Shown piece by piece: positions 27,587-29,390 of a DNA stretch of 64,000 nucleotides; the first letter of the stretch is position 1, and each line of letters opens with the position of its first letter. Under the pieces are notes generated by a model. That model did not search any database. It worked only from the letters and a program-made list of their open reading frames with translations, and was not told the DNA's origin. The position numbers and the translations under genes are program-made. The stretch is from a virus: IMG/VR virus record IMGVR_UViG_3300032322_002561, positions 62,001 to 126,000 of that record; one strand, given 5' to 3'.

Positions 27587-28327
27587 TTAATTAAAAGTCT
27601 TTGTCAAGCCTACTACCACTGCATTTTTGTAGAGCTTTTGACCGCCTACAGTGTTTGCAGTTTCAAAGGTTGATGTGGTGCCAGTATTGGTAAAATACTT
27701 GACGCTCAAGTCATATGCCTTGGGTAGAGAATAAACAAATCCAGCATTGATGTCGTTGTAATCATATGCCGAGCTGTTGGCCACATTGGTACGACCATAG
27801 TGAGCAACCACAGCTAGATTTTTAACAACAGGAACTGGTAGTTTGCCATCCACTTGTGTATAGTTTGTGCCACGAGCATTGGCTGTACCGAAGTAACCGT
27901 TGCCCAAGGTTTGGCTATACTTGGCAGAAATAATGTCTTTGTAACCTACGCCGACAAAACCTTCATAGGTGTCAAAGTTGCTGCCAGTGGCTGCAGAAGT
28001 GGTTGCACGTGGATAGAAATAGTTGTAGCTACCGATGTCAATCGAGATGCCCTTGAAAATTTCTTTCTTGTAACCAGCATAGAGGTCGCTTTCTACACCT
28101 GCACCGTTGGTATAAACATTGCTGGAAACACTGCTGTTCCAGTTACCAACATAGAAGCCACTCTTGTGTGCATAGTCGATGCCGCCCTGAACTGCAGGAG
28201 CATTTTGGGTTTGGCTAACACCGCGGAAACGGTAGTCGCTGGTCAAACCTAAATTGCCGGTGAGTTGAGCTTGAGCCGAGGCAACAAAGCCAGCGGACAA
28301 GGCTAATGCGATTAATAGTTTTTTCAT
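27587..28327 (-). CDS. TorF-type outer membrane beta-barrel protein (TIGR02001-like)
   Basis: A 246-aa secreted protein: signal peptide MKKLLIALALSAGFVASAQA, then QLTGNLGLTSDYRFRGVSQT, the usual start of this proteobacterial family, repeated amphipathic strands and a terminal aromatic/Asn (GLTKTFN) as expected for a barrel inserted by BAM. Host counterparts are uncharacterised porin-like proteins. A phage copy could alter envelope permeability or block superinfection. Late-type CTAAATAA and a leader palindrome precede it; a terminator follows. Confidence 0.85.
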   Translation of the reverse strand: MKKLLIALALSAGFVASAQAQLTGNLGLTSDYRFRGVSQTQNAPAVQGGIDYAHKSGFYVGNWNSSVSSNVYTNGAGVESDLYAGYKKEIFKGISIDIGSYNYFYPRATTSAATGSNFDTYEGFVGVGYKDIISAKYSQTLGNGYFGTANARGTNYTQVDGKLPVPVVKNLAVVAHYGRTNVANSSAYDYNDINAGFVYSLPKAYDLSVKYFTNTGTTSTFETANTVGGQKLYKNAVVVGLTKTFN

Positions 28328-28373: not shown

Positions 28374-28381
28374 TTATTTAG
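28374..28381 (-). promoter_or_regulatory. T4-late-like promoter element
   Basis: CTAAATAA on the minus strand, 47 nt before the ATG of the outer membrane gene. Confidence 0.45.
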
Positions 28382-28403
28382 TGGTTTTCACTGATGGCCA
28401 ACA

Positions 28404-28432
28404 AAAAAGCGACATTTCTGCCGCTTTTTTGA
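28404..28432 (-). terminator. Rho-independent terminator of the tmRNA unit
   Basis: AAAAAAGCGGC, short loop, GTCGCTTTTTT; works on both strands. Lies just after the tmRNA coding piece. Confidence 0.85.
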
Positions 28433-28467
28433 CTATTTTGGGTAACAAGGCATAGTTGCCCCGGAGA

Positions 28468-28509
28468 TCATGCCGCTAAGGCAAAGACCTCGTCGTTGGC
28501 TGCGTTTGC
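28468..28509 (-). other. tmRNA proteolysis tag reading frame
   Basis: GCA AAC resume codons after GATAACT, encoding ANAANDEVFALAA and TGA stop. The hydrophobic ALAA end is the recognition signal for ClpXP-type proteases. The 13-aa length resembles permuted tmRNA tags. Confidence 0.88.
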
Positions 28510-28547
28510 AGTTATCGTTGTGCTTCTACAACCGGGTGTCCCCAGTC

Positions 28548-28715
28548 CTAACGGGTTTCGCATTCCCGTGTAGATCCTGTCCATACTTGTTGCCACGTCG
28601 AAACTGTGTCATCCCCACCAAAAAGACCTAGCAATTCTGGATCAATGTGCCAGCTCCAGCTCATGCTGTAATTCCACAAATTCAAGGGTGGAAAACTATC
28701 GGTCCATTGCTCCAT
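28548..28715 (-). CDS. Possible 55-aa ORF across the tmRNA intervening sequence
   Basis: Starts in the 110-nt intervening segment (28617-28726) with AAAGGAC 5 nt before the ATG and reads into the tmRNA coding piece. Encodes a Trp-rich peptide beginning MEQWTDSFPPLNLWNY. It may be a real small gene whose mRNA doubles as tmRNA precursor, or chance. Confidence 0.35.
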   Translation of the reverse strand: MEQWTDSFPPLNLWNYSMSWSWHIDPELLGLFGGDDTVSTWQQVWTGSTRECETR

Positions 28716-28726
28716 AAAAGTCCTTT

Positions 28727-28770
28727 TGGTGGAGATGCCGGGTTCTGCCCCCGGGTCCGCAACACCTTTC
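28727..28770 (-). ncRNA. tmRNA acceptor piece
   Basis: Contains P2 strand, T-arm with 7-nt loop GGCAGAA (not the usual TTCRANY), acceptor strand, A73 and encoded CCA (28729-28727). The 5' end is not determined. Confidence 0.85.
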
Positions 28771-28798
28771 TGTCAAGGCATTAAACTACAATTCTTTT

Positions 28799-28828
28799 AT
28801 TGTACTACAAAAAATATTTATTGGTCAA
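28799..28828 (-). promoter_or_regulatory. Promoter of the tmRNA gene
   Basis: Minus-strand -35 TTGACC (28823-28828), 18-bp spacer, -10 TACAAT (28799-28804); start near 28792. Confidence 0.78.
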
Positions 28829-28935
28829 TTAAACAAACCGTATGTCCAACACCATAATTCCAGGCTGAGTTTGTACAGCAACCACATGGCCACCAAGCCT
28901 GTGCTAAAGATTAAAGTTAATTGAGTTTTATTCAT
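28825..28935 (-). CDS. Tiny single-span membrane protein (36 aa)
   Basis: MNKTQLTLIFSTGLVAMWLL then a Trp/Leu-rich end; one transmembrane helix. Its stop overlaps the -35 of the tmRNA promoter. Fourth of a cluster of tiny membrane ORFs. Coding status likely but unproven. Confidence 0.5.
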   Translation of the reverse strand: MNKTQLTLIFSTGLVAMWLLYKLSLELWCWTYGLFN

Positions 28936-28972
28936 AGATCCGACCCACCACCACGTTTAACGAACGTGGAAA

Positions 28973-29044
28973 CTAGTAAAACACCAACAAGAAAACTGCC
29001 ACCACAACCACAATGCCAATGGCAAAACTGTAGTCTGGTTCCAC
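28973..29044 (-). CDS. Possible tiny membrane peptide (23 aa, GTG start)
   Basis: Encodes EPDYSFAIGIVVVVAVFLL and ends VFY; almost entirely one membrane helix. No clear ribosome site; begins 1 nt after the previous stop. Confidence 0.3.
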   Translation of the reverse strand: MEPDYSFAIGIVVVVAVFLLVFY

Positions 29045-29045
29045 G

Positions 29046-29138
29046 CTATTTCCCAAACAAGTGTGCTACAATGCCCATGGCCACAAACACTGCGATGGCT
29101 GCAATGGCTGCCCAAGGAAGGTTTTGAAATATTTTCAT
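29046..29138 (-). CDS. Tiny single-span membrane protein (30 aa)
   Basis: MKIFQNLPWAAIAAIAVFVA followed by a short end. Start overlaps the preceding stop as ATGA, and AAGGACG lies upstream. Possibly a membrane regulator or lysis-related peptide; unknown. Confidence 0.5.
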   Translation of the reverse strand: MKIFQNLPWAAIAAIAVFVAMGIVAHLFGK

Positions 29139-29218
29139 TGTTCGTCCTTGTGTTCGTTAAGCCACATGATGCCATAACACACAACTATGGCCAACAAGGC
29201 AAAAAATATCAGCCACAT
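29135..29218 (-). CDS. Tiny single-span membrane protein (27 aa)
   Basis: MWLIFFALLAIVVCYGIMWL with a charged NEHKDEQ tail, so probably N-out/C-in or a small anchor. ATGA coupling to the next tiny gene. Confidence 0.5.
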   Translation of the reverse strand: MWLIFFALLAIVVCYGIMWLNEHKDEQ

Positions 29219-29273
29219 GTTAATTATAACCTTTTATGTTTTTGCCGTCAATCTTGGGATTACCTTTTGCTGC

Positions 29274-29390
29274 TACATTTTCTAATTGACGTGCTCGATC
29301 TCGTTCGGGCGGTAGCGGGCCGCAACCCAACCTGTCCCACTCTGAATCAGAGTAGTAGTATTTTTCTACGGGTTTTTTGACCTGTTCCAT
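29274..29390 (-). pseudogene. Short ORF with probable frameshift (38 aa visible)
   Basis: MEQVKKPVEKYYYSDSEWD... stops at a TAG near 29276. A one-base insertion in the T3/A3 run at 29279-29281 would continue the frame as VAAKGNPKIDGKNIKGYN and stop directly before the next ATG. So a 56-aa gene may be broken by an indel, either natural or an assembly error. Confidence 0.45.

Follow-up and report, generated by a model that had tools for sequence, protein, structure and literature searches.

The minus strand of the 64,000-nucleotide stretch of viral DNA analysed here (hereafter, the window) carries, between positions 28403 and 28828, a complete circularly permuted tmRNA gene whose intervening segment contains a conserved small-protein gene. 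Comparison with related phage loci makes it probable that this is a dual gene, at once tmRNA and messenger for a small protein, with an intervening slot whose content is exchangeable; its expression, processing and part in trans-translation, the mutual exclusion of its two uses and the role of the small protein are what we infer from the sequences compared. The tmRNA gene is in itself a further example of an already known phage gene type. By contrast, a protein gene nested in the intervening segment of a permuted tmRNA is apparently undescribed, as we found none in the open-licence literature searched. The location on the minus strand, the open reading frame (ORF) in the intervening segment and the pairing of the segment ends onto the acceptor stem are three points that go beyond the first-pass annotation of this DNA.

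ARAGORN detected one permuted tmRNA in the window (28377-28819, minus strand), with the tag ANAANDEVFALAA followed by TGA, and the merged permuted model of Rfam (RF04321, tmRNA_permuted; gathering score 47) matched it end to end from 28790 to 28468 on the same strand, with 107.7 bits and an E value of 4.9e-20. These two results, together with the location on a 236-kb phage contig, bear out the first-pass reading of a phage-encoded circularly permuted two-piece tmRNA, and the acceptor strands, T-arm, P2 pairing, tag frame ending in TGA and permuted order on which that reading drew were recovered by ARAGORN and RF04321. The covariance search that it had proposed gave a clear pass for RF04321. 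The alpha_tmRNA model (RF01849, cut-off 50) gave 60 bits, but over the tRNA-like part only (model positions 82-172 of 355), and the beta_tmRNA model (RF01850) matched the gene over its full length with 66.2 bits, under its curated cut-off of 84; a relative with the same tag, L070, reaches 144.8 with the latter model.

In the order of the transcript, which is the permuted one, the gene comprises an acceptor piece, an intervening segment and a coding piece, all on the minus strand. It is preceded by the sigma-70-like promoter TTGACC-18-TACAAT that the first-pass annotation had pointed out; it lies at 28799-28828, is a consensus match only, and is the best of three such sites in the region, where shuffling predicts 1.0. 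The acceptor piece (28727-28790; ARAGORN, Rfam) contains a P2 strand, the T-arm with its loop GGCAGAA at 28743-28749, the acceptor 3' strand and an encoded CCA. This CCA ends at 28727 and the coding piece begins at 28616, so that the piece ends originally proposed are right in the sequence, with 110 nt between them (28617-28726). The coding piece (28431-28616, the mature 3' end being approximate; ARAGORN, Rfam) holds the acceptor 5' strand GGGGAUG, the D-loop, the other P2 strand, the tag region and a beta-like downstream pseudoknot. ARAGORN places the tag reading frame ANAANDEVFALAA, with resume codon GCA and TGA stop, at 28468-28509. The terminator of the first-pass annotation is visible in the sequence as a stem-loop, AAAAAAGCGGC-AGAAAT-GUCGCUUUUUU, at 28403-28430, and the beta model match runs through it, although the scan tool did not list it. 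Directly downstream of the tmRNA, at 27587-28327 (minus strand), lies a gene for an outer-membrane-type protein with a signal peptide (PF09694, Gcw_chp, E 1.1e-45), which looks acquired from a host. Further along, the phage tRNA cluster includes a class-III aminotransferase gene (PF00202; 23808-24944, minus strand).

The window belongs to a 236,309-base IMG/VR virus record, a phage contig with a T4-like family-B DNA polymerase closest, among isolates, to those of Sinorhizobium phage Phosso (49.6%) and Agrobacterium phage Atu_ph07 (45.8%). A permuted tmRNA was present in 7 of the 49 records found via the DNA polymerase, most of which are fragments; Phosso is among the seven, and we found no permuted tmRNA in Atu_ph07. 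The 13-residue tag ANAANDEVFALAA ends in the LAA protease signal before its TGA stop. With all synonymous codons allowed, it turned up in 31 viral contigs of up to 320 kb; a search of 84,980 prokaryote species genomes gave no occurrence. Tags in the beta bacteria that we retrieved are 10 residues long (e.g., ANDERFALAA). Contamination by a host gene or a prophage was therefore rejected, given the 236-kb phage with its T4-like polymerase and a tag seen in 31 viral contigs and 0 bacterial genomes. This phage-only tag might also serve as a marker for finding the products of phage-made trans-translation by mass spectrometry.

Permuted tmRNAs are less rare in phages than the first-pass annotation supposed. 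Fifty-three two-piece tmRNAs have already been reported from phage genomes (PMC9004378), and 79 unique bacteriophage tmRNAs have been listed (PMC11915505). A narrow pattern scan of IMG/VR yielded at least 115 viral stretches, almost all of which ARAGORN called as permuted tmRNAs, and the narrow scans together gave more than 150 phage permuted tmRNAs; since these viral scans relied on exact patterns, their counts are to be read as minima. A DNA search of the window tmRNA against phage records returned no match. Several phage permuted tmRNAs (L414, L422, L425, L427, L455, L485, L497 and others) have tags of 26-32 residues (e.g., ANADTFDFSAMSFTGNSVSGKSKVALAA), 10 being the usual number. Cupriavidus pinatubonensis HN-2 contains several extra permuted tmRNA copies (L565-L568) on its chromosomes and a plasmid, with the tag ANDEKFALAA and a phage-like acceptor stem.

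The tRNA-like domain has the acceptor stem GGGGAUG/CAUCUCC, in which the sequence displays a G3-U70 wobble, the feature used by alanyl-tRNA synthetase. Positions 18 and 55 of the tRNA covary among 133 distinct phage tmRNAs: U55 accompanies G18 in 114 and G55 accompanies a non-G18 in 19, with no exceptions (related sequences, for which p-values are not literal); the same tabulation in bacteria gave 17, 0, 2 and 15. The recurrence of this rule across three loop types speaks for a tRNA-like fold that works. The window combines a T-loop GGCAGAA and a D-loop CAG of alpha-bacterial type with an otherwise beta-like body. The third type, UGCGAAU with AG (L417, L420, L424, L442, L457, L464, L510, L513 and L519), obeys the 18-55 rule as well and was found in phages and absent from the bacterial tmRNAs sampled. 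A tree of the mature pieces, based on only 139 usable columns, separated the window, phage and beta sequences from the alpha ones with support of 100/100. The end branch of the window (0.35) is among the longest in this tree; because of it and of the score below the beta cut-off (66.2 vs 84), some decay of the window gene is possible, and a gene this divergent may have lost one of its functions in this particular phage.

The divergence of the tRNA-like domain could also be taken to mean that the RNA is not itself functional as a tmRNA but serves as a decoy or inhibitor of the host tmRNA, a role that work cited in PMC11915505 ascribes to the tag-less form found in mycobacteriophage DS6A. A search for an SmpB gene in the window phage and 16 relatives (17 records) found none, and the window RNA would compete for the SmpB of the host. 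However, a complete tag frame is kept in 31 contigs, and the G3-U70 pair, the CCA and the covarying 18-55 contact are all present, so we regard a decoy as highly improbable. For a working tmRNA, the lack of a phage-encoded SmpB implies that the host is expected to supply this protein.

The 110-nt length that the first-pass annotation gave for the intervening segment is correct; its treatment as a plain spacer did not hold, as a conserved small-protein gene sits inside. The two ends of the segment, ACCAAAAGGACUUUU and AGGUCUUUUUGGU, pair with each other and prolong the acceptor stem, as they do in nearly every phage and beta-bacterial member that we folded. Across 131 phage loci, duplexes between a locus's own arms had a mean of -10.6 kcal/mol vs -4.4 for swapped arms, and just 2.9% of the swaps reached the own-arm median. 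The pairing is thus specific over the set, though not demonstrably so for the window member: of 130 foreign 3' arms, 30 match its 5' arm no less well than its own does. The beta bacteria have the same extension, which led us to reject it as a phage-specific novelty. A Shine-Dalgarno (SD)-like AAGGA (28721-28725, minus strand), at the same position in other phages, lies inside this extended stem; in the window fold (-52.7 kcal/mol) it is buried in a stable helix, which could block translation.

Bacterial intervening segments measure 22-68 nt (76 distinct ones, except for one of 5 nt and an evident false call of 239), too short to hold nested small-protein genes. Phage segments reach 215 nt, although the search patterns bias these lengths; those retrieved by tag only range from 25 to 132 nt. 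The Burkholderiales sampling gave mostly weak cross-matches below the cut-off, judged to be non-permuted tmRNAs. Four loci (L201, L221, L223 and L235) have long segments without an SD-led ORF, which fold into inner hairpins.

In the window, the AAGGA of the extended stem stands at the usual spacing, 5 nt before an ATG that opens the ORF MEQWTDSFPPLNLWNYS... (28548-28715, minus strand; 55 aa, MEQWTDSFPPLNLWNYSMSWSWHIDPELLGLFGGDDTVSTWQQVWTGSTRECETR). The first 33 of its 55 codons lie in the intervening segment (MEQWTDSFPPLNLWNYSMSWSWHIDPELLGLFG), no stop codon occurs ahead of the cleavage site, and the remainder reads into the mature coding piece (GDDTVSTWQQ...). Of 92 distinct phage loci whose collection took no account of ORFs, 11 contain within the segment an SD, an ATG and a frame of 15 codons or more, vs 2.4 expected from dinucleotide shuffling. 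When the scan was widened and made to require both SD and ATG, the total rose to at least 61 distinct loci, a set biased for those two features; an initial broad SD pattern had given mostly unrelated loci among the matches listed. The window ORF belongs to family A (M[DE]QW.D.FPPLNLWN.S..W.W). At least seven other small-protein families occur in the same slot, mixed independently of the tag, among them B (MF..WHWVY.WGI..VNY.F.IIKSLFD), C (MDPEVKYQYTCGILSVIILVFLIFFL), D (MKYTALCP.CF.RF.W..GKGLTKHKCFSD, with a cysteine spacing like that of a zinc ribbon) and E (MNDDLT.LAIGVVVVLVVFALVLL), as well as F, G, H and single cases. Judging from their sequences, most of these peptides look like single membrane helices, a type that the window peptide does not resemble. 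In families C, E, G and H a TGA closes the frame within the segment, shortly ahead of the RNase P site, whereas the frame of A, B and D is open through the cleavage site. Searches of the nested peptides in Pfam and PHROGs gave nothing convincing, and A, B and D had no match among 50,697 isolate-phage records.

The frame of the nested ORF is under purifying selection. In family A (window, L108, L509, L452 and L061, found through tmRNA patterns without use of the ORF sequence), pN/pS over codons 1-22 is 0.16 in frame and 0.81 and 1.38 out of frame, and differences fall 39, 22 and 88 times at codon positions 1, 2 and 3. In-frame values are also low for B (0.34, 13 members), D (0.39, 8), E (0.18, 11) and G (0.15, 2), with 0.5 to 9 in the other frames; the loci within each family are related. 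Residues beyond the ATG were left free in the retrieval pattern, which means that the amino-acid conservation was not built in. These data bear directly on a rival reading of the locus, in which the phage simply carries a copy of a permuted tmRNA, with the segment as a spacer and an ORF that arises by chance within conserved RNA. Part of the ORF is indeed constrained by the stem and the tmRNA sequence, a stretch of 110 nt will often contain a short ORF by chance, and 81 of the 92 loci, which have long segments, lack one by the same criterion. Nevertheless, frame-specific conservation in unpaired loop sequence, repeated in five families, the existence of homologues that stand alone and have a stop codon of their own, and the exchange of whole cassettes between tmRNAs are difficult to reconcile with such a copy, which we consider very unlikely.

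Evidence of exchange came from pairs of loci. L454 (tag ANDEQFALAA) and L425 (28-residue tag) are 95% identical in the intervening segment and 61% in the coding piece; conversely, L427 and L455 share 52% of the intervening segment and 92% of the coding piece. These contrasts show that loop gene and tag move independently of each other. Family B is found, too, as a free-standing gene of the ordinary kind with its own stop (MFENWHWVYMWGILVVVNYMFWIVKSLFDNVKE-stop), ending ...KSLFDNVKE. Seven of these genes (L548-L551 and L555-L557) lie directly upstream of a permuted tmRNA; another (L558) has no tmRNA in a 620-nt flank, and the other copies run up to the edge of the retrieved sequence. Likewise, members of G, of H and of the L210 type recur upstream of other tmRNAs. 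In the window itself, a gene for 56 aa at 29220-29390 (minus strand) is 76% identical over 25 residues (19/25) to the ORF nested in the L210 tmRNA. It opens a run of tiny hydrophobic ORFs, continued by four overlapping or adjacent putative ones (29135-29218, 29046-29138, 28973-29056 and 28825-28935, minus strand; ORF calls spanning 28825-29218) that ends at the tmRNA promoter, the third of which weakly resembles the nested family E. The family A motif FPPLNLWN occurs once in the window phage, inside the tmRNA; elsewhere it opens various phage proteins.

A dual gene would work as follows. A single primary transcript would have two possible fates. In the first, the acceptor stem and its extension would close, and host RNase P (at 28616) and a 3'-end nuclease (at the CCA) would excise the intervening segment; permuted precursors are probably processed by RNase P and tRNase Z (PMC3985003). 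The two pieces, held together by acceptor and P2 pairing, would then act with host SmpB as a tmRNA, releasing stalled ribosomes and adding the phage-specific degradation tag ANAANDEVFALAA with its LAA end. In the second, before stem closure, a ribosome would bind the AAGGA in the 5' strand of the stem and translate the small protein from the intervening segment. Since the acceptor stem shares bases with both the SD and the start codon, a given transcript would be either translated or folded, not both. Small phage genes would be exchanged in and out of the intervening loop, and the small genes just upstream would belong to the same pool. More tentatively, and with somewhat less than even confidence, we propose that the loop is a general swappable slot for tiny genes and the pre-tmRNA a switch between small protein and tmRNA, which would tie the dose of a small, often membrane, phage protein to the demand for ribosome rescue.

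The open frames of families A, B and D allow a different use of the same transcript: because they run past the RNase P site, they would become nonstop messages after cleavage, the tmRNA's own substrate. The excised segment, or the acceptor-piece intermediate left by the RNase P cut, might then be a deliberate nonstop mRNA: ribosomes would stall at its end, and the tmRNA that releases the small protein would also tag it, making the protein short-lived or feeding back on the dose of tmRNA. The position of the SD, which starts beside the CCA cleavage point, fits this idea, as does the free-standing B gene, which ends ...KSLFDNVKE-stop. Yet families C, E, G and H do stop at a TGA within the segment, and translation of the unprocessed transcript would also meet a stop farther downstream, so we hold a deliberate nonstop message to be unlikely.

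tmRNA genes are reference non-coding genes, and the segment removed from permuted ones is treated as waste. Conserved protein genes of many families, exchanged within that segment, point instead to a bifunctional tmRNA/mRNA gene, which would escape annotation pipelines. A dual gene would make two questions testable: why large phages carry tmRNAs, and how very small membrane proteins are accommodated and regulated in phages.

The window gene shares its gene order, acceptor stem, P2, tag frame and downstream pseudoknot with the permuted tmRNAs described by RF04321, RF01850 and RF01849. The acceptor-stem extension is common to it and the beta bacteria (RF01850), from which it differs by its alpha-type contact between T-loop GGCAGAA and D-loop CAG. 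Bacterial permuted tmRNAs have 22-68 nt where the window has 110 nt with a coding ORF, and its 13-residue tag was not found in bacteria. Among phages, the Methylophilales phage Melnitz, a myophage with T4-like replication genes, likewise encodes a permuted two-piece tmRNA; it is reported to be alpha-like, with a glutamine riboswitch, and no nested protein gene is reported for it (PMC9004378). The Sinorhizobium phages Phosso (PV764938) and AP-J-162 (PMC11242549), jumbo phages like that of the window, also carry tmRNAs. That of Phosso is permuted too, but with an alpha-form score and an intervening segment of ~400 nt; it is unannotated in the record (L199, PV764938.1 349596-350198). The homing-endonuclease genes in group I introns of tmRNAs (PMC11915505) offer another parallel, a protein gene in a segment that is removed; the window, however, has no intron or self-splicing, and the nested proteins (24-60 aa) are not endonucleases. 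Finally, SgrS/SgrT resembles the window locus in combining a working RNA and a protein gene in one transcript, although SgrS is not a tRNA-like RNA.
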